NCBI GenBank assembly: GCA_012511955.1
Contig: JAAZFC010000063.1
Coordinates: forward strand, 1 to 32,688
DNA: 32,688 nt
DNA from: Fibrobacter sp.
Lineage (GTDB): Bacteria > Fibrobacterota > Fibrobacteria > Fibrobacterales > Fibrobacteraceae
Direction: 5' to 3'
A program made the position numbers and the translations under genes. Under the pieces are notes generated by a model. The model saw only the letters and a program-made list of their open reading frames with translations. It made no database searches and was not told the DNA's origin. This document shows positions 22,245 to 31,989 of the stretch, piece by piece. How positions within the stretch are numbered: the first letter of the stretch is position 1; each line of letters starts with the position of its first letter.

Positions 22245-24386
22245 CTACTGCCCGAAAACCATCTTATAACTTTGCCCAGAATTTTGCGCTCTAATCACAT
22301 AGATTCCCGGCTGATTGAGCACAGACATTAATCTTTCTTGTAAATTACAATGCTCGCTCGCCCTAAATTGCGCCACTAATTTACCCTGCAAATTATGCAC
22401 TCTAAAGGTGGTTTTTTCAGCGACCAGCTCAGGCTTTGCTAAGGAAATTACCGGAGACTCATTGCTAAAGCTAATCCAATCCAGGTTGACAAAACTCCCC
22501 GTGATTAAAACCCTAAGTTCATGCTCTCCCGTGCTAATTGCTTGGGTTTTGCCAGAAATTTCCGTATAAGTGTCCCAATCTTCGCCTGCGGGAACCTTAA
22601 TGGTATCGCTAATGGCCTTATCGTCCATAAAAAGCATAAACGAAGAGCCTGCTAAGCCCGAAGCAACCCGCGCAGTGTAAAACATTTCTCCCGCTTGCTC
22701 CACATTTACCGTGTATTTTAACCATTCGCCCACTAGGGTATAACCCACCGCCCAGCCCTCGTCAATGGCTACCACATCCACCCCTGCGCCAGGTCTAAAA
22801 CTCGCATCCCCTTGGTTTTCAGAATCCGCATCGTTATAAGCTTTGCCTTGACCGCCTTCATCGTAAAATTCCGCTTCAATCTTTCCGGGAATGGTGGCTG
22901 CTACATCTTTATAGGGTGCTTGGGGAATGCTAGGTCCGCTGGTAAATTCCCATTCTAAAATCCCCATGGTAGAGTCTCTAGCTCCTTTAAATACCAAGAA
23001 TAACTGATCCACCAAGCCGCTTAAATTGCTCACCGCACACTCAGTAGTTTCGTAAGAATGCCAGCCATTGGTCTGAGGAAGTTCACAAGTTCCTGCCAAA
23101 GTTCCCGTTACGCTTTTGCTGCGAATTTCAATTTTATTATTGGCGGCTAAACTGGCGGCTTTTACTCTAAAATTGGTAGCGCCTGGGCCAAAATCCACCC
23201 CCGACACCCGAATCCACGATTCTTTGGTGCTATGCGGAGTGAGAACATGCTTCACGGGTTGTCCTCGCGTCCAATCCGTGCGACTGCGAATATTGCGTTG
23301 TTTGCTGCTAGTCAGGGCGGGATATTTTTTATAAGGATTAAAATTGGCGATTTGTTTGGGACCTTCATCGGTGAAAATCAGTTTATCCAACTTATCGCCG
23401 GTGTAGGTGAGTTCGTCAATGCTCACACTGCGGTGATAGGCTGGGGAAGGGTTCGCCACTCCTAAAGATGCGGGATGTTCGTCGGCTTGCACCAAGCGTC
23501 TATCGTGATATACCGCATACCACTTTCCTTTAAATTCTGCAATTCCATGGTGATTATTGTTGTGCGCATTAATATTTCTGCCGTTTATATTGGGATTATC
23601 CATAAAAATTCCTTGATAAGTATATGGACCCATAACATTATTGGAAGTAGCATAACCTATACGCAAATCGGCTGTGCTATAGGATAAATAGTAGATGTTA
23701 TTTCTTTTGTGAATAAAAGGCGCCTCCATAACTCGAGGACCACCAAACTTTAACTGTACTTTGGAGTTTACATCAAAGCCTTTCATGTCGTTATTGAGTT
23801 TGTAAATATTAAAAACATTGTTATTGCCATCCTCTGCTTTGCGCACATTATTACTTCCACCTCCAAAGGTGAAATATCCACTGCCGTCATCGTCAAAGAA
23901 TATATCGGGATCAAAACACCAAGCGATGCCATCACAATCCGCTAAGCCGCCGCCCCAGTTGTGGATCAGTTTTTTATTTCCGGGAATGGGGTTTTCCCAG
24001 GGGCCACTAAAGTTTGAGGCAGTAATCATGCCCACGCCACCGCCTCCGCCATCGGGATACACAATATAAAATTTTCCATCCGGGCCAATATCTATGCCCG
24101 AAGCCCAAATATCGTTGATGTTGTCGTATTCCCGTTTGGCTTCAAAAATAATACCGTGATCGGTCCAGTTTTTCATATCTTGACTGGTAAAACCGTAGAG
24201 AGATTTAATGGTATAACCATCGTCTCCAGCGGGGTCATCACTGTCGGTGATTAGGTAAAAAGTTTCGCCATCCGAAGTGGCAGCCGGATCCGCCAAATAA
24301 TGATAACTACTAATAGGGTTATCAGCGTAAATCAGTGTCAAGCCACCCACCAATATAGCCAAGCTAATGATTTTTAGAACATCCAT
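22245..24386 (-). CDS. Secreted GH43-family glycoside hydrolase with CBM6-like modules and sorting tail
   Basis: A 713-residue secreted enzyme, probably a beta-xylosidase/alpha-L-arabinofuranosidase acting on arabinoxylan. A signal peptide (about 20 residues) precedes a five-bladed-propeller GH43 domain (about 25-320) with the three expected acids: Asp in HYLADPAATSDG (about 33, base), Asp in CFDPDIFFDDDG (about 159-161), Glu in RVMEAPFIHK (about 221, acid). A beta-sandwich of CBM6 type follows (about 365-470), then a second CBM6/35-like module (about 500-640: GKIEAEFYD ... GEWLKYTVNV ... LDWISFS). The last 60 residues (TFRVHNLQGKLVAQF ... GIYVIRA ... KMVFGQ) look like a T9SS-type C-terminal sorting domain, common in Fibrobacter and Bacteroidota secreted enzymes. 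ATG 24386 is chosen because AGGAG lies 6 bases upstream. Exact substrate is not certain. Confidence 0.9.
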   Translation of the reverse strand: MDVLKIISLAILVGGLTLIYADNPISSYHYLADPAATSDGETFYLITDSDDPAGDDGYTIKSLYGFTSQDMKNWTDHGIIFEAKREYDNINDIWASGIDIGPDGKFYIVYPDGGGGGVGMITASNFSGPWENPIPGNKKLIHNWGGGLADCDGIAWCFDPDIFFDDDGSGYFTFGGGSNNVRKAEDGNNNVFNIYKLNNDMKGFDVNSKVQLKFGGPRVMEAPFIHKRNNIYYLSYSTADLRIGYATSNNVMGPYTYQGIFMDNPNINGRNINAHNNNHHGIAEFKGKWYAVYHDRRLVQADEHPASLGVANPSPAYHRSVSIDELTYTGDKLDKLIFTDEGPKQIANFNPYKKYPALTSSKQRNIRSRTDWTRGQPVKHVLTPHSTKESWIRVSGVDFGPGATNFRVKAASLAANNKIEIRSKSVTGTLAGTCELPQTNGWHSYETTECAVSNLSGLVDQLFLVFKGARDSTMGILEWEFTSGPSIPQAPYKDVAATIPGKIEAEFYDEGGQGKAYNDADSENQGDASFRPGAGVDVVAIDEGWAVGYTLVGEWLKYTVNVEQAGEMFYTARVASGLAGSSFMLFMDDKAISDTIKVPAGEDWDTYTEISGKTQAISTGEHELRVLITGSFVNLDWISFSNESPVISLAKPELVAEKTTFRVHNLQGKLVAQFRASEHCNLQERLMSVLNQPGIYVIRAQNSGQSYKMVFGQ

Positions 24387-24539
24387 ATCCAACTCCTAAC
24401 TTTAATAATTTGCCTTATACTTAAAATCTAGGCTCAAAAAACCGTGATTTCCAGCCACAAAACCAAGATAGTATGGATAAAATGTCCATGAAGATAATAA
24501 GTAGTAAGCTAGTGGAAAGCGCCGTTTTTAATAAAAATG

Positions 24540-24568
24540 TTGACTGAGAAATTTTTAATGCTTACATT
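24540..24568 (+). promoter_or_regulatory. Putative sigma-70 promoter for the four-gene surface operon
   Basis: TTGACT (24540-24545), 17-base spacer, TACATT (24563-24568). Transcription near 24575 gives a leader of about 29 bases with GAGGA before TTG 24604. It lies in the 217-base gap shared with the divergent GH43 gene; the rest of that gap holds only a short inverted repeat, ATGGA-TAAAATG-TCCAT (about 24473-24489), possibly an operator. Confidence 0.55.
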
Positions 24569-24603
24569 AATAATTAAGCTTGAATTTATTTTGTGAGGAA
24601 GAG

Positions 24604-27600
24604 TTGAGTTACATAAAAACACTTACCGTGCTGTTTTCATTATTTGTGACTGCGTCCCTAGTGATGGCTGATTCGTACCCTAATCACGAATGGGAATTAA
24701 ATAACTATGAAGGTGCTTATGCGGTTTTTAATGAAGGTTTAATAACCATAGCTTATGGTGGTTCAGATTTTTGGCATGTGCAACTAACCAGAAAAAACAT
24801 TAGGTTACAAAACCACAAAACTTACGAAGCAAAATTTACTTTGCGTGGTATCGATAAGCGGAGAGTTGTTGAAGTTAGAATAGGGCGAGATGGTTTCCCT
24901 TATGAAGCGTTTGTTGAGTTTGGTGAAATTTCAGCACCAGTTCATGGACAAAGCTATGTTAAAACATTTGTAATGCAGTCTCCCACCATAAACAACGCAC
25001 GATTTGAATTTAATGCAGGTAAAAGTAATGAAAATGTGATGATTTCAGATGTAAGCCTAACATGTTTAGATTGTTCTGATATGGAAAACGATAATCCAGT
25101 AGAGAATGTGCCGCAACTAGCTAATGTTTCGCAGGAGTTTTTGATAGCAGCAGATGTTGTCGATTTGAGGGATAATTCAATGGCATTGGGGGATGTCTAT
25201 GCTAAATCTTTTGAACTTGGGGTTAATGCTAAGGTTTATGGTAAAGTTGATGTTTACAATGAATGTTTTTTAAGAGATAGAAGTTATGTCAGTGATTTGC
25301 TGCGCTATGGCAATAAATGTACAGAACAAAATCAAGTTGCGGTTTCTAAAAGTAAAGCTGATTTGACCGAGTATAGTATGTCGATTAGCCCAATAAATCC
25401 TAATTCGACAAATGTTAGCATTGGCAATAATAATCAGCAAACAATTTTACCTGGAGTTTATGGCAAACTCCAAGCTTATTCTAATACAACAATGAATTTT
25501 TCTTCGGGAACTTATGTATTTAAGGGGTTTAAAACCGAAGCCGATGCAAAAATAATATTAAATCTTAGCGAAGGTCCCATTCACATAAAAGTGAGCAACA
25601 ATGTTCGCTTTGGTGATAGAAATAAATTTGAGGTAATAGGTGGCAACCCAAGTGAAATAACATGGGAAGTTAGTGGCAATAGTGTAGATTTTGGCACAGA
25701 TGGTAAGTACTTGGGGCGTTTCATTGCACCGCAAGCTCATTTACGCATACCATCGCGTTCTCATTTAGTTGGTGGCTTATATGCGCAAAAATTAACTTTA
25801 GAGCCGCAATCTACAATTTCAGAAGAGCCTAAAGCAACAGAAATATCTCATAGCGAGGAATATTTTGCGCCATTTTTTGACAAAAACATCTATCGCTTCA
25901 CCACCGTTTTATCACCATCAATTGCTGATTTAGAAATGTATGTGTACGCCCCTGGTTTAGGAGTCAAAATAAATGGCAAAACTAATACAAAAATAAGTAC
26001 ACTTTCATATAATCAAATGGTCAAAATAGATTTAACTCGGAATCAAATATCAGGGTTTCCACAGGAAGCATTTAATTCAACATATTATTTCAATTTTAAA
26101 AAGTCACCAGAATATAAAATTTACTGGAATCCCCAGTCGGGTTGTATGCAGGGCTGCGACGGTGCAACATTGGAAAGCGCTTTAAGCGACTATGAAATGG
26201 TTATTAATGCGTTTTTAAATACTGGCAAGCAAATCAACTTGATAGGTGGCGCGTGGAATGCTTGGGAAAATAGTGACAATGGAGTGATAAATTGGCCTGT
26301 TGGATTTAAAGTACTAGGTAACGATGCTAAAATGTTAGATATGCAATCTGAAGATGATTTGCCGAAAATTAATTTAGGTAACGAAGCTTTTATAAAAGTG
26401 TTAGGTAAGTCGCCTCGGAGCATGGTAGGGTTGCATATATCAAATGGCTTTAACGCAGGTTCAGGTGGTGCTTTAAGTGTAAGTGCGCAGAAATTGTTAC
26501 TAAACAATGTGATTGTTGAAAATTCAAAGTCTGATACTGATGGCGGTGCTCTTTATGTGGAAGATACCCTAATTATGGAAAATGTGCGGTTCTCTAAAAA
26601 TGAATCTAAAGGGAGAGGTGGTGCTTTGTTCGCAAACAACGCAATATCAGGCTTAAATGTGATTTTTTCTAGTAACAATTCTGCACTGAATGGTGGTGCT
26701 CTTTTTACAAAAGCTAATAATACAACCTTTGGAAACGCCATATTTTATGCCAATAATTCAAGCGGTAAAGGCGGTGCCTGGTATAATGAAAATGCCATCT
26801 TGAAAATATGGCATGCAACAGTTTATGCCAATAATGCTAATCAAGGTTACGGTGCTGTAGGTGGAAGTAGTACTGGCGAAATTGGCAACTCAATTTTTTG
26901 GAATAACACCACACCTGGTTGTGAAGGTGAAGGGTGTGGCGTAGAAGTTGTCTCAGGCTTTGACACTAAACATAACTCATTTAGTCAAGAGTATCCTGGG
27001 CTTAATAACTTTAAAGGAAATCCTAAATTTTTGAATGAAAATAATCCTGACGGTGGCATTAATTTTATGAATTATAATGCTGGAATTAATTTAGCAAACG
27101 GCTCGTCATTGTTATCGGCAGGCTTGGTTAATTCGAGTGTTCCAGAAGAGGATATTTTGGGGGGGAGCCGAAGTGATCTAAACTTACATTTAGGAGCTTA
27201 TGCTTGGGTTCAGCCTAATGAAGATGTGATTTACGGTCGTTTAAATAGTGCGGGGGATGTGGAAGCCGCTATGCCTAAAGTGCCACTAATTAATGAGTTT
27301 CCAGATAATTGGTTTATAGGCTACATGTCAAAATCTAAATACGCGAGGGTAATTGCGGCTAAAGTGCCCAAGAATAGGTTAACTAAAAGTGCAAGCAGTG
27401 CAGTAGTAAAAATAAAGCTACTTGATAAAAATGGTAAGGCCTATAGTGATGTTCCGAGTTTAAAACTTAAAGTCTATAAAAATGGTGAAAAAGATGGGCA
27501 GTTTGTTTTTCAAACTATGACTTTGACTAAGGGTAAACCCATCTTGTTTTCAAAAAATCCTAAAGATGTGAACGAATATGAAAGCGCTTTCATTTTGTGC

Positions 27601-27645
27601 ATGAAAGATGAATTTGACCAATTTGAAATGGAAGTGATTGAATAG
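24604..27645 (+). CDS. Large secreted protein: CBM4/9-like domain plus GGA-rung right-handed beta-helix
   Basis: A 1013-residue exported protein. A TTG start at 24604 with GAGGA upstream gives signal peptide MSYIKTLTVLFSLFVTASLV followed by MA and cleavage before DSYPNH. Residues about 25-155 look like a CBM4/9 jelly-roll (HEWELNNYEGAYAVF ... FWHVQLTRKNIRL ... YVKTFVMQSPT ... ARFEFNAGK). A middle part (about 170-400) resembles collagen-binding-like 'choice-of-anchor' beta-solenoids (GVYGKLQAYSNTTMNFSSGTYVFKGF, RFIAPQAHLRIP). Then comes a parallel beta-helix with five GGA(L/F/W) rungs at bases 26464, 26542, 26617, 26692 and 26770, spaced 25-26 residues, as in chlamydial Pmp-type proteins. I see no polysaccharide lyase catalytic site. 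The C-terminus has no clear anchor. It heads a four-gene operon and is probably a surface adhesin or polysaccharide-binding protein. Confidence 0.75.
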   Translation: MSYIKTLTVLFSLFVTASLVMADSYPNHEWELNNYEGAYAVFNEGLITIAYGGSDFWHVQLTRKNIRLQNHKTYEAKFTLRGIDKRRVVEVRIGRDGFPYEAFVEFGEISAPVHGQSYVKTFVMQSPTINNARFEFNAGKSNENVMISDVSLTCLDCSDMENDNPVENVPQLANVSQEFLIAADVVDLRDNSMALGDVYAKSFELGVNAKVYGKVDVYNECFLRDRSYVSDLLRYGNKCTEQNQVAVSKSKADLTEYSMSISPINPNSTNVSIGNNNQQTILPGVYGKLQAYSNTTMNFSSGTYVFKGFKTEADAKIILNLSEGPIHIKVSNNVRFGDRNKFEVIGGNPSEITWEVSGNSVDFGTDGKYLGRFIAPQAHLRIPSRSHLVGGLYAQKLTLEPQSTISEEPKATEISHSEEYFAPFFDKNIYRFTTVLSPSIADLEMYVYAPGLGVKINGKTNTKISTLSYNQMVKIDLTRNQISGFPQEAFNSTYYFNFKKSPEYKIYWNPQSGCMQGCDGATLESALSDYEMVINAFLNTGKQINLIGGAWNAWENSDNGVINWPVGFKVLGNDAKMLDMQSEDDLPKINLGNEAFIKVLGKSPRSMVGLHISNGFNAGSGGALSVSAQKLLLNNVIVENSKSDTDGGALYVEDTLIMENVRFSKNESKGRGGALFANNAISGLNVIFSSNNSALNGGALFTKANNTTFGNAIFYANNSSGKGGAWYNENAILKIWHATVYANNANQGYGAVGGSSTGEIGNSIFWNNTTPGCEGEGCGVEVVSGFDTKHNSFSQEYPGLNNFKGNPKFLNENNPDGGINFMNYNAGINLANGSSLLSAGLVNSSVPEEDILGGSRSDLNLHLGAYAWVQPNEDVIYGRLNSAGDVEAAMPKVPLINEFPDNWFIGYMSKSKYARVIAAKVPKNRLTKSASSAVVKIKLLDKNGKAYSDVPSLKLKVYKNGEKDGQFVFQTMTLTKGKPILFSKNPKDVNEYESAFILCMKDEFDQFEMEVIE

Positions 27646-27656
27646 GAGGAGATGCT

Positions 27657-29057
27657 GTGCGTAAAGTAATATTTGTCAGTTTTGTAGTAATTTTATTATT
27701 GGGATGCAGTGGTCGCAAAACTAGTTCTCCTTCGGCAGGAGCTACACCAGCACCTGGCACTAACCCTCCATCAGCAGGGGCTGTCATCGAATTTGTTTGG
27801 GATACTTTAGTGCCTGATGTGTTTGCGTCTGAAAATCATAAATATGGCTTTGATAAGGATCCCAAGTCTAAGTTTTATCCAGAGTTGGCAAAAGATATTT
27901 ATGTCTCAGTAAAAAAAGGGGAAGCCGCCAAAGTTTCTCTTCAGTTGTCTAACTCTTACAATAAGCATTCTTTATTTAATGTTACAACTCAGCAAATGGT
28001 TGTTGATTGCTGCACCAACAAAGCTACAGAACTAGAACTTTCTGAAGGACATTATGAAATTTATGGCGATAATATGCCCTTGGATAGACATATTCATGTT
28101 ATTGGGTATAATGAAAAAACAGTCCCGGCAGAATATGTGCAATTTGATGCCGAAGATGGTTTGTGCTTTGATGAAGGATGCTATTCATTTGAAGGGGTTA
28201 AAGAAAACTTTGATAGAGTTTACAGTCAAGCTGTGACTAAAAACGCTTTTGTAGAAAGAAGTCATAGTGATTTTAGTCTCAATAAGATACTGACCTTTAA
28301 TTTGACCGCTCCAATACAAGGTGATGAGTTAATGAAAGAATTTCATGATATGGTCATGCATAATATTAATAGCGAGCAAAATCGAATAATTTTTGCAATA
28401 AATTCTATAGAATGGGAATGGAATGTTTATGTTGAACAGTTTGATACTTTGTTACTTAATAATTATCTGCATGCCAATTTAGAATCAACTCATAATGTTT
28501 TAATATCATCGTGTGGAGTAGCAACTCAAGCTCAAAAGTCACTTTTGACGGTTTTAGGTTTAGATAGAAAAAATCAAGTTGCAAAAGTGCTTATTCCTAA
28601 TGCAAGTAGCTATAGTCCTTGTGTTTCTATCAAAATGGAAAGTGAGCTACCTGTTTTACCAACAGGTATAAAGATATTAAGTGAAACTGCTTTCAGCAAA
28701 ACTGCTCAAGTAGCCTACAATTATTTATCTGCAGACAATAAAGTAATACGCTCAATGATTTACGCACCTCGCTTTATGGGAGAACACTCTCTAAATGTTA
28801 TACTGCACGAATTAGGGCATTCATTAGGTTTATTTGATGTATTTAAAGATGAAACAGAAGGGACATATGTTTATATTAACGGTAATGAGTTTGCAACAAG
28901 CGAAGCAAATATTATGACTTATACTATGCCAACAGGCCCCAAATTACGCTATCGTGATTTACAAGCAGTTATAACCAGCACAAATAATATAATTGAAGAC
29001 GTTTATGAAAATCAGTGGAATTGTATAAATCTGAGTGATTGTAACCCTAAGAGGTAA
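27657..29057 (+). CDS. Lipoprotein with an HExxHxxGxxD metalloprotease motif
   Basis: A 466-residue protein starting at GTG 27657 after a strong ribosome site AGGAGGAG. The lipobox LLLGC (Cys17) predicts lipid anchoring, followed by a Ser/Pro/Ala-rich spacer (21-43). The zinc motif HELGHSLGLFD occupies 384-394 (ligands H384, H388; E385 catalytic; D394 as probable third ligand), and EANIMTYTM (417-424) supplies the Met-turn expected of metzincins. An Asp third ligand is the pattern of snapalysin-type enzymes rather than HExxHxxGxxH astacin/matrixin types. The 340 residues before the catalytic part are beta-rich with several Cys pairs and match nothing I know. It lies 11 bases behind the beta-helix gene and 3 ahead of the FGE-like gene. 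Substrate may be a neighbouring surface protein; that is inference. Confidence 0.75.
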   Translation: MRKVIFVSFVVILLLGCSGRKTSSPSAGATPAPGTNPPSAGAVIEFVWDTLVPDVFASENHKYGFDKDPKSKFYPELAKDIYVSVKKGEAAKVSLQLSNSYNKHSLFNVTTQQMVVDCCTNKATELELSEGHYEIYGDNMPLDRHIHVIGYNEKTVPAEYVQFDAEDGLCFDEGCYSFEGVKENFDRVYSQAVTKNAFVERSHSDFSLNKILTFNLTAPIQGDELMKEFHDMVMHNINSEQNRIIFAINSIEWEWNVYVEQFDTLLLNNYLHANLESTHNVLISSCGVATQAQKSLLTVLGLDRKNQVAKVLIPNASSYSPCVSIKMESELPVLPTGIKILSETAFSKTAQVAYNYLSADNKVIRSMIYAPRFMGEHSLNVILHELGHSLGLFDVFKDETEGTYVYINGNEFATSEANIMTYTMPTGPKLRYRDLQAVITSTNNIIEDVYENQWNCINLSDCNPKR

Positions 29058-29060
29058 AAG

Positions 29061-30464
29061 ATGAAAATAAAAGCAGTATTAGTCTTTATGATAATTGCAT
29101 ATAGCTTATCCTTTTCAGCATCCTACTCTATGTTTGATGTCTCAGGTAAATACCTTGGGAATACAAATAATAAAGATCTTAATGGGCATTTATCAGGAGT
29201 GCGTCCCCCCATTTATTTTAAGAAGAACTATAATGGCGATAACGAGTTTAGTAAAAGTAAAATTCAAGTTACTCCTGAAGTAACTGAGTTTTTTGAGTCT
29301 GAAGCAAAATGGATAGAAATTGAAAAAAACACAGCATTGTTAGTTTGCTTACCTGAAAGAAAGCTGGGTAAATGGTTGTTAACTGCAGGTGTTAATGGCT
29401 TCGTACAAAATGAGCAGTGTTTTCAAATAAGCGGTATGGAAAAAACAGGTTCATATCAGGTTCTTTTTTGGGAGGATGGCCATAGATATACATATACTAT
29501 TAATGTAGCTGTTGGTATGAAATATATTGATTTATCGAGACAAAAACACAAAATAGGATCACATAAGTCAGGTTATAGCAGAAAATCAAATTATTTTTGG
29601 GTGGATGAAAATGGAGAGTCTATTAGTGAATTAAATGAAAAAAATCGTGTATATTTCGATCCTGAAAGCATCGTTAATATGGATAAAAAACTTTTAGTCG
29701 ATAAGTATTTGGTAACTAACTGTGACTTCTTAGAAGTAATGAAGGATTCAATTCCTGAAAAACTGCACATTTCTTACAAAAAAAGAAATATTTATTACAG
29801 TGATTGGGTCGAAAGGAAAGATAAGTACAAAAATAAATGCGATGTTCACGACACCGCTGCAGAAATCATACATCTCTATAGTGCTTTTGTTTATGCAAAT
29901 TTACGGAGTGTAAAAGATGGGTTACAGCCAGTATATTCTTTTAACAACTTTGAAAGTGATAAACAGATCGTTCCACGATTATTAGAAGATGGGTCACATG
30001 TTGTAATAAAACGATCTTTTTTAGAAAAAGATGATATTCAACGAGAAGTTAAAGTATATGTTGACACTAACTCAGATGGTTATCGTTTGCCTTTTTATGA
30101 GGAATGGATGGTTTTGGCAAGAGCTGGTGATACATCAAATTTTGATGCCTATTGGCAAAATGAATCTGAGGCTAGAGAATATGCTTGGTTTGGGGAAGGG
30201 GACTTTTGGAGTAGGGGCTCAAAACCGGTAGGTATCTTAAAACCTAATGCTTTTGGTTTGTATGATATTTTGGGGTTAGTATGTGAAAATACCATGTTTA
30301 GTAACGAAATAATGCTTGGCCGTTATTCTCCTTATGTCTGTAAGGGAGGTATGTTATCTGACTCTTTAAATTCTCTTAACATTCATAATTATAAGTTTGG
30401 TTGTGAAGTATCCTCTGGTTGTGTACTACGCCAAAACATTCGTTTGGTTCGTAAATTAAAATGA
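29061..30464 (+). CDS. Secreted FGE-like (SUMF1/FGE-sulfatase fold) protein, paralog 1
   Basis: A 467-residue protein with a signal peptide (MKIKAVLVFMIIAYSLSFSA) and a novel N-terminal beta domain (about 20-150). The second part follows the FGE/SUMF1 pattern: GMKYIDL (152-158), VDKYLVTNCDFLEVM (213-227), YRLPFYEEWMVLARAG (341-356), EYAWFGEG, SKPVGILKPNAFGLYDILGLVCEN (387-410), VCKGGML (426-432) and the closing IRLVRKLK. The copper-binding Cys pair of true formylglycine-generating enzymes (GG-Y-C----C-RYR) is absent, so it is probably a binding or structural C-type-lectin-like fold, not an enzyme. AGAGG precedes ATG 29061. Its TGA overlaps the next ATG (ATGA), so the two paralogs are coupled. 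Similar paralogous sets occur in Fibrobacter. Confidence 0.8.
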   Translation: MKIKAVLVFMIIAYSLSFSASYSMFDVSGKYLGNTNNKDLNGHLSGVRPPIYFKKNYNGDNEFSKSKIQVTPEVTEFFESEAKWIEIEKNTALLVCLPERKLGKWLLTAGVNGFVQNEQCFQISGMEKTGSYQVLFWEDGHRYTYTINVAVGMKYIDLSRQKHKIGSHKSGYSRKSNYFWVDENGESISELNEKNRVYFDPESIVNMDKKLLVDKYLVTNCDFLEVMKDSIPEKLHISYKKRNIYYSDWVERKDKYKNKCDVHDTAAEIIHLYSAFVYANLRSVKDGLQPVYSFNNFESDKQIVPRLLEDGSHVVIKRSFLEKDDIQREVKVYVDTNSDGYRLPFYEEWMVLARAGDTSNFDAYWQNESEAREYAWFGEGDFWSRGSKPVGILKPNAFGLYDILGLVCENTMFSNEIMLGRYSPYVCKGGMLSDSLNSLNIHNYKFGCEVSSGCVLRQNIRLVRKLK

Positions 30465-31989
30465 ATAACCTGCACAAAATAGCGATTTTATTATGGTGCT
30501 TTTTGGTACTAAGCTCCGCCCAGTAATATGTGCAATACGACATCAATGGTAAGGTGCTAAATAAGTACCGCTGTGAAAGCCATGAGAACTGTAAACACCT
30601 CGCCCAAAAGCATCAAAAGCCAGGATCTTATTGGTTAGTAAATCAAGCTAGTTCGCAAAGAACAGCACAACGCAGTGTTAAGGTGCTTGATGCCAATGCC
30701 GTAAGCATTGATACTATAAGTATTGCGGTTTCCGATTCGGTACTATGGTTAGAATTGGAGAAAAATCAGGTGCATAGTCTATGCTTGGAAGATTCTTCCG
30801 GTGGGCTATGGGAACCTCCTGATTTGGCTTATAGATTCGAAAATGCTCGTTGCATACAATTTCATACCGGCGATTTGGTAAAATCAGCTCAAATTAAGTA
30901 TTCATCAACTTTACAATCTAAGCTAACGGTAAACTTGCTTATAGGTATGAAATATATTGATTTATCCGCTAAACCGCAATGGTTGGGATCTAATAATATT
31001 GTCAAATACAAAAAACCACTTATTTATTATTTAGGTGAAGGAGCTGAACAGAAAAATTTAGATAATATGATATTTATAGACCCAGAAAGATGGGAGAGCG
31101 TAAATGAAGTTTTAGCGGTAGATAAATATTTGGTTACACAATGCGAAATTCTACGCACTTTGGGAGATTCTATCCCCGAACAATTACAAAAGCCAGCCAT
31201 ATCTGATTATTATCAATATTGGATGGATAAAAAGAAAAAGTTAGCCCAAAAATCTGTCTGTGAAACTCATGATTCGGCTAATGTATTTTTATATAAATAT
31301 GCCATGGTGCTTTATGCTAATTTACGCAGTGTCAGAGATGGATTTGAGCCTGTTTATAACTTTGAGTACACTCTCTCATTACCTACTTTTGAAGAAGTAA
31401 GAAAACATTCAAAGCCTATATGCGAATCAGTGTATTTATACGAGGGTGTAAGATCACCGACAGCCGAGGAAGAAAGATATGTAGATTCAATCGGTAGTTT
31501 CTACACAAATGCTGCTGTTTTTGACAACAAAGTGAGTAATTTACTCGCTAAAGTTACGATAAACAAAGAAGCTAATGGATATAGGTTGCCGTATTATAAC
31601 GAATGGATGGCTCTGGCGCGCGGAGGTGAACAAATTTCGAATAATTATTGGGAACAAATTGCATCGGAAGACACCGGGCATCAAGCGTCTGCTTATGCTT
31701 GGTTTGGTGAAAAAGAGCCTTGGCGGAGAGAATCAAAGCCTGTGGGGGTGCTAAAACCCAACAATTATGGTCTTTATGATATGCTAGGTTTGGTGGATGA
31801 GGTGATTATGTTAAATGGTACAGAATTGTTATATAATTACAGTATCCTTACAAGCTTTCAAGAGTTATTTGCAAAGAAAAGTCTCTATATACTGAGTTAA
31901 AAGACTTACACTTTAATAATAACAATGATAATTGCTTGAATAACCACACTTCTAGCCATGGCTTTAGGCTAGTTCGTAGCCTGCGATGA
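30461..31989 (+). pseudogene. Secreted FGE-like protein, paralog 2: in-frame TAA after signal peptide and C-terminal frameshift
   Basis: A tandem duplicate of the preceding gene. ATG 30461 opens a signal peptide (MNNLHKIAILLWCFLVLSSA) then Q, TAA at 30524-30526, and continues in the same frame with YVQYDINGKVL, aligning to paralog 1 (YSMFDVSGKYL). The TAA faces a Ser there. Shared blocks include GMKYIDLS, VDKYLVTQCE, SIPEQL, YANLRSVRDGFEPVY, YRLPYYNEWMALARGGE, YAWFGEKE and SKPVGVLKPNNYGLYDMLGLV. Between about 31837 and 31866 the frame shifts by one base: the original frame ends at TAA 31898, whereas the shifted frame reads LSRVICKEKSL (paralog: PYVCKGGML) and ends in HGFRLVRSLR at TGA 31989, as expected. 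A 1-base deletion explains this. With two lesions it is probably dead. The only other start (GTG 30530) lacks a signal peptide. Confidence 0.85.

Follow-up and report, generated by a model that had tools for sequence, protein, structure and literature searches.

The window analysed here, 32,688 nucleotides of contig C35 from a 2.68 Mb, 150-contig Fibrobacteraceae genome, carries on its + strand three intact and closely spaced genes. We will refer to them as A (24604..27645), B (27657..29057) and C (29061..30464), predicted to encode an exported carrier, a lipoprotein metalloprotease and an exported FGE-like protein of C-type-lectin fold, respectively. These frames lie where the first-pass annotation had placed them, with an A-B gap of 11 bases and a B-C gap of 3. 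That annotation also counted a fourth protein in the unit, from the second FGE-like gene D (30461..31989, +), whose ATG at 30461 overlaps C by 4 bases. D is broken: its signal peptide runs straight into a TAA (SSAQ*YVQ; 30524-30526), and the conserved C-terminus GFRLVRSLR lies in another frame, ending at 31989. Thus, only A, B and C of the proposed unit are intact, even if a sequencing error might conceivably account for the stop and the 3' frameshift in D. Upstream of A, the promoter-like hexamers TTGACT-17-TACATT (24540..24568, +; 9 of 12 matches) had been described as a good promoter; their position before the gene is plausible, but sites of this type are not enriched over shuffled sequence, the scan giving 31 against 28.8 +/- 6.2 expected by chance. 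A divergent GH43 and CBM6 protein (22245-24392, - strand), whose C-terminal stretch resembles the type IX sorting domain of TIGR04183 (20.0 bits vs. a cut-off of 23), had been linked to the unit as well. It was rejected as a part of the system, since it adjoins A in the window genome and in no other locus.

The open frame of A extends from 24580, from which its residues are numbered here; the likeliest start is the TTG at 24604, after GAGGAAGAG. Homologs share 36-49% identity with A, and its parts follow the order signal peptide, CBM4-type domain, DUF7305 segment, middle region, GGA beta-helix and C-terminal domain. The CBM4 carbohydrate-binding-like domain (aa 58-147; 24751..25020, +) matches PF02018 (3.3e-6; the family is also seen in 12 of the 15 A homologs), as well as PDB profiles at 2.6e-6 and, by Foldseek, the CBM4 of CelK at 2.8e-8; by sequence and modelled fold the protein therefore appears to carry a CBM4 domain, with glycan binding as its predicted function. 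The DUF7305 segment (aa 183-420; 25126..25839, +; PF23981 in 14/15 homologs), on which a literature search returned nothing, belongs to a conserved trunk. Comparison with homologs suggests that the trunk usually gives way to a variable tip at aa ~590-650 (26347..26529, +). The tip starts with a beta-helix of GGA rungs (aa 600-860; 26377..27159, +; Chlam_PMP/POMP matches) and ends with a C-terminal domain of ~145 residues (aa 875-1021; 27202..27642, +) that has homologs elsewhere. The structure model is good in the N-terminal domain and the beta-helix, with regular strands at pLDDT 83-96 over aa 620-760, and poor as a whole (pTM 0.42). The combination of a GGA-rung beta-helix with a carbohydrate-binding-like domain, as first proposed for this protein, was thus confirmed by its POMP rungs and CBM4 fold. 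Searches against Pfam and NCBIfam gave CBM4_9, DUF7305 and PMP repeats only, with none of the delivery domains TPS, Rhs, PAAR, LXG or MuF. The C-terminal domain was also considered as a type IX sorting signal, and rejected because it occurs as well in lipoproteins with a lipobox of their own. Among related proteins, a 337-residue one (L165:211-1224, genome G015) joins the CBM4 N-terminus of A straight to its C-terminal domain, with neither trunk nor beta-helix. Furthermore, frames of ~2450-2490 residues match the DUF7305 region in G016, G017, G022, G039 and G050, the match in each of them including a single TGA and a single TAG; they are possibly adjacent genes or contain real in-frame stops.

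Gene B combines an LLGC lipobox with the zinc motif HELGHSLGLFD (28806..28838, +) and a downstream Met-turn, NIMTY, in agreement with its earlier description as a lipid-anchored HExxHxxGxxD protein. By its motifs, HExxHxxGxx(H/D) followed by a Met-turn, it would be a metzincin; matches to curated metzincin families (M12B, M10, M66) were weak only, and its N-terminal half is unrelated to every family tested. The structure model is of low confidence (pLDDT 66), and Foldseek gave no usable fold match. HExxH, the Asp ligand and N-x-M are kept in 26/26 B proteins, Gly being replaced in two, and the active-site residues are invariant down to 16-34% identity. At some loci B was missed by sequence search and a 500-550-residue protein stands in its place; when aligned, these proteins share with B its zinc motif, its Met-turn and its C-terminal cysteines, and the lipobox cysteine is almost invariant among the proteins of the B slot. 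Of the three, only B is a lipoprotein; the surface placement originally proposed for the whole set is, for A and C, a putative one.

The protein encoded by C matches PF03781 at 5e-12 and, among PDB profiles, Treponema TvpA best (3.8e-21), with FGE at about 1e-11; TvpA, SUMF2, FGE and PorK are the nearest solved structures. It has no lipobox, and near its C-terminus there is no conserved catalytic Cys pair, C427 alone being nearly invariant there while the other cysteines vary in number and spacing; the view of an FGE fold lacking catalytic Cys therefore stands. Against NCBIfam TIGR03525 (PorK/GldK), D reaches 22.9 bits vs. a cut-off of 350 and C gives no match. The first-pass annotation spoke of paired FGE-like proteins; the pairing fails in the window because D is broken, while second FGE-like copies do occur at L079 and L084. 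The TvpA match prompted consideration of a diversity-generating retroelement (DGR) acting on C or D, which was rejected: the only RVT_1 match of the genome is on contig C56, and no near-identical repeat was found for either gene. Contig C56 (L121:290-2361, L134) contains a DGR of its own, with a reverse transcriptase and an Asn-codon-rich template (GGNFNGGSFNNMSNNGNWWSATEND...), whose variable copy, 88% identical, forms the end of a FISUMP-type protein; at the protein level, the two copies differ mainly at Asn codons.

Gene A is present in 20 of the 101 Fibrobacteraceae genomes, and in 23/23 readable loci, i.e., those with the 3' end of A away from a contig edge, the next genes are of the B and C types, in that order. 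The isolate F. intestinalis ATCC 43854 (L117), which is in culture, has the locus. The homologs are thus co-located, as a first reading of the locus had anticipated, and a search for the scattered homologs that would contradict it instead extended the A-protease pair to other families of the phylum, where an A-like gene precedes a lipoprotein-type gene with HExxH and Met-turn (L153, L156, L157, L166, L169). The slot is not always filled in the same manner. In G130, from a distant family (L158), it holds a papain-like lipoprotein (L158:1628-3454; Pfam C1, 8e-9) that retains Q-G-x-C as well as the His and Asn residues, which indicates that the type of protease is replaceable. At L159, an f8 locus, the protease motif is degenerate, and in genus g6 (L160-L162) A is followed by a small lipoprotein resembling its C-terminal domain, with no protease recognised behind it. 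Together, the invariant active site of B and the replaceable protease type make an active protease the best-supported prediction for this gene. Regarding the neighbourhood, a lipoprotein of 304 aa and another HExxH protein were met in a minority of loci, and FISUMP lipoproteins recur; being common in the group, the latter were not counted as evidence. In one class of cassettes, the gene after C encodes an exported esterase of the BD-FAE type (L075:12564-13601, L112:13993-15021, L116:8720-9757), orphan cassettes included (L086:1889-2911, L109:3772-4587). Two of the contigs are titled Bacteroidales bacterium (L111) and archaeon (L116); they are probably mis-binned Fibrobacter, since their flanks match Fibrobacter MAGs at 92-99%.

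The main new finding, which goes beyond the single sequence available to the first-pass annotation, is that the tip of A is exchanged together with B and C. The trunk of A can be 94-97% identical where the tip, B and C share only 19-31% protein identity; in such pairs these parts retain no detectable DNA homology, which returns past C. Over 26 loci, pairwise divergence of the C-terminal domain of A correlates with that of B (rho 0.79) and C (0.72), and that of B with that of C (0.71), values reached by 0/500 permutations; the A core is hardly correlated with B (rho 0.11, 53/500) or with the C-terminal domain (0.10, 82/500), all of these results depending on the alignments used. In the pair G050-L111, A is 91-100% identical to about residue 540 and 25-42% past 660, and B and C are 19% and 25% identical, respectively; in G043-L116, the 83-95% identity of A gives way to 24-48%, B being 13% and C 23% identical; in G033-G091, the break is closer to residue 800. 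A likelihood tree of the trunk groups G039+G050+L111, G043+L116 and G033+G091 (support 99-100). The C tree rejects all three groups (AU p 1e-3, 3e-91 and 1e-38, respectively) and the B tree rejects the first (7e-7; the B result is for that group only), bearing in mind that the groups were picked after the identities had been seen and that AU values, too, depend on alignments. B and C trees agree in outline, with two main cassette classes, and these classes are common to otherwise unrelated genomes. At the DNA level, L069 and L111 are 96% identical upstream and 91% along the trunk to aa 623 of A, share no detectable homology over the ~4.8 kb comprising the tip, B and C; downstream, identity is back at 94%. 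This sharp stop within A and the return right after C indicate, from the alignment itself, allelic replacement of a cassette and not fast divergence. The cassette is not always exchanged whole: between G039 and G050, DNA identity through A is 92% and the C-terminal domain of A is 91% identical, against 42% for B and 56% for C at the protein level, so that some exchanges begin within the 5' part of B. Direct repeats of 53-81 bases flank several loci, upstream of A and downstream of C, and none was found in the window; they resemble dispersed intergenic repeats and were considered as recombination arms. Most loci are MAG contigs, and assembly chimeras could account for single cases.

Parts of the cassette are also found on their own. 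Remnants without A, consisting of a 5'-truncated B followed by C, occur at L086, L096, L097, L101 and L109. Most of them have an intact C; it is split in L101 and cut once by the contig end in L086, where several such units are present. Among the orphan C genes of L086 (G018), one has 89% identity to the C resident in G039, from another genus (omega 0.25), vs. 56% between G039 and its own trunk sister; two orphan C genes of G099 give omega 0.19 at dS about 1. In the window, D groups within a C branch (support 95) that leaves out the window's own C; it is therefore probably a decaying C gene of an earlier cassette, with no B fragment before it. As a lipoprotein of its own, the C-terminal domain of A is encoded next to FGE-like genes; in G088 and G094, and by search coordinates in G065 as well, it is joined to the C-terminal end of FGE-like lipoproteins. 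Such domain fusions usually mark interacting partners, and the tip of A and C are hence presumed partners. Tandem FGE-like arrays lacking A and B (L087-L095, L100; G094, G088, G070, G065, G049, G061, G041) reach about 8 genes, some of them lipoproteins and some with the C-terminal domain of A; FGE-like matches reach 19 per genome.

These data can be brought together as a polymorphic envelope system of Fibrobacterota, composed of a conserved carrier, an exchangeable tip, a cognate protease and an FGE-like partner, an explanation that could prove right or wrong with about equal ease. The trunk of A, with its CBM4 and DUF7305 parts, would be a constant exported carrier that binds glycan; the tip (the beta-helix end and C-terminal domain) would be swapped as one cassette with B and C, and the three would have to match and would travel together. 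B would cleave a target protein that varies by cassette, and C would most likely dock on the tip and/or B as a binding or neutralising partner. By analogy with polymorphic toxin or recognition systems, selection would most likely stem from other cells (competitors, phage, kin), through recognition or conflict. The explanation builds on the 23/23 gene order, the rho values, the trees, the L069/L111 comparison, the remnants, the fusions, the invariant B site and the placement of D. Several observations count against it: the lack of a delivery domain in A, the g6 loci with no protease and the degenerate f8 one, the incomplete G039/G050 exchange and the MAG origin of most loci, together with the esterase of some cassettes and the CBM4 domain, which would equally suit plant-wall degradation. 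Antagonism, recognition and substrate attack are its candidate purposes.

The alternative that survives best is a toxin-immunity pair, in which B, or the tip plus B, would be an envelope protease toxin acting on neighbours, C its exported immunity protein and the tandem FGE-like arrays immunity repertoires. At CDI loci, orphan immunity genes stay expressible and orphan toxins lack start signals (PMC3150448), and remnants that keep C behind a truncated B resemble this situation; by this analogy the alternative is a serious one, albeit doubtful overall. Cassette exchange, orphans with an intact, constrained C, and arrays of up to about 8 FGE-like genes in the absence of A or B all match it, and lipoprotein polymorphic toxins do exist (SitA, PMC5562445). 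Against this, the domain of A fuses to an FGE-like protein and not to B, three partners covary rather than two, delivery machinery was not recognised, and B is the producer's own lipoprotein. A digestive role is weaker, and unlikely: the CBM4 domain would bind plant or host glycan, B would degrade cell-wall or mucin glycoproteins, C would be a lectin-like substrate binder, and exchange would adapt the set to its substrates. Fibrobacter is a dominant cellulose degrader of herbivore guts, and the cellulolytic, gut-dwelling hosts, the CBM4 fold, the esterase in one cassette class and the GH43 adjoining the window locus would all fit; nonetheless, the GH43 adjacency is unique to the window genome, A is found in just about 20% of family genomes, and neither orphan C genes kept with truncated B nor exchange behind near-identical trunks would be expected of a digestive set. 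The model first put forward, with maturation of A by B, ligand binding by C or D and no polymorphism involved, is quite unlikely, in spite of the adjacency, conserved order and active-site conservation that speak for it. A trunk ~95% identical beside a B replaced by a 19%-identical protein, or by a different protease fold as in G130, is a poor fit for a constant cleavage site, and B could mature A only inside the variable tip. Finally, ordinary fast divergence of surface proteins combined with assembly errors, as the many MAGs and the several contigs ending within the trunk might suggest, is very unlikely given the sharp loss and immediate return of DNA homology around the cassette, the B and C classes common to unrelated genomes, and an orphan C closer across genera than within the trunk sister pair. 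Broadly, the first-pass annotation was partly confirmed in what it observed and partly supported in how it interpreted it.

Returning to the envelope system, a constant carrier with a swapped tip, protease and lectin-fold partner would, if true, be a new architecture among polymorphic systems, give a role to the large unexplained FGE-like families of Fibrobacter and predict strain-specific interactions. A bolder and tentative extension, which we would not expect to hold, is an interbacterial or kin-recognition system of a new class, so far seen only in Fibrobacterota, with a glycan-anchored carrier, a swappable beta-helix tip, a lipoprotein protease effector, an FGE-like immunity or recognition partner, and orphan cassettes and FGE arrays as repertoires. 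The literature search found no publication on such a locus in Fibrobacter and no paper on antagonism or recognition systems in this genus. In keeping with the early impression of a composition unlike any described system, the arrangement with co-exchanged tip, B and C appears undescribed.

Several known systems resemble parts of it. As in CDI and Rhs systems (CdiA-CT/CdiI), a conserved carrier N-terminus is combined with an exchangeable C-terminal tip that travels with the downstream gene(s), by allelic replacement between conserved flanks, and orphan modules form arrays with a truncated first gene (PMC3150448); this locus, however, has no TPS, Rhs or VENN parts, and its exchanged unit is a tip, a lipoprotein protease and an FGE-like protein. 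In Myxococcus, the SitBAI operon is likewise polymorphic and encodes an outer-membrane lipoprotein as effector next to an exported accessory protein (PMC5562445), but neither a TraAB-like receptor nor a C-terminal nuclease was identified here, and the metalloprotease centre of B is retained throughout. Streptomyces umbrella toxins (UmbA/B/C) share the principle of a secreted carrier with diversified lectin-type proteins, which in that case set target specificity (PMC13274773); there are no homologous parts, A being a CBM4/beta-helix protein and the FGE-like fold taking the place of beta-propeller lectins. B resembles the BF0631-type metzincin lipoproteins (TIGR03952) in its lipid anchor and HExxHxxGxx zinc motif, and differs in its third ligand, Asp, and in a score of 18.4 bits vs. 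a cut-off of 208. TvpA, a DGR variable protein, is the nearest solved structure to C, whose locus lacks reverse transcriptase, template and variable repeat and varies by cassette exchange instead. In the type IX secretion protein PorK/GldK, a non-catalytic FGE-like fold is an envelope docking hub (PMC12421860), and such a fold can thus serve for docking; C shares this non-catalytic, envelope-type fold, but it is not a lipoprotein, falls far below the GldK cut-off and belongs to an unrelated operon.
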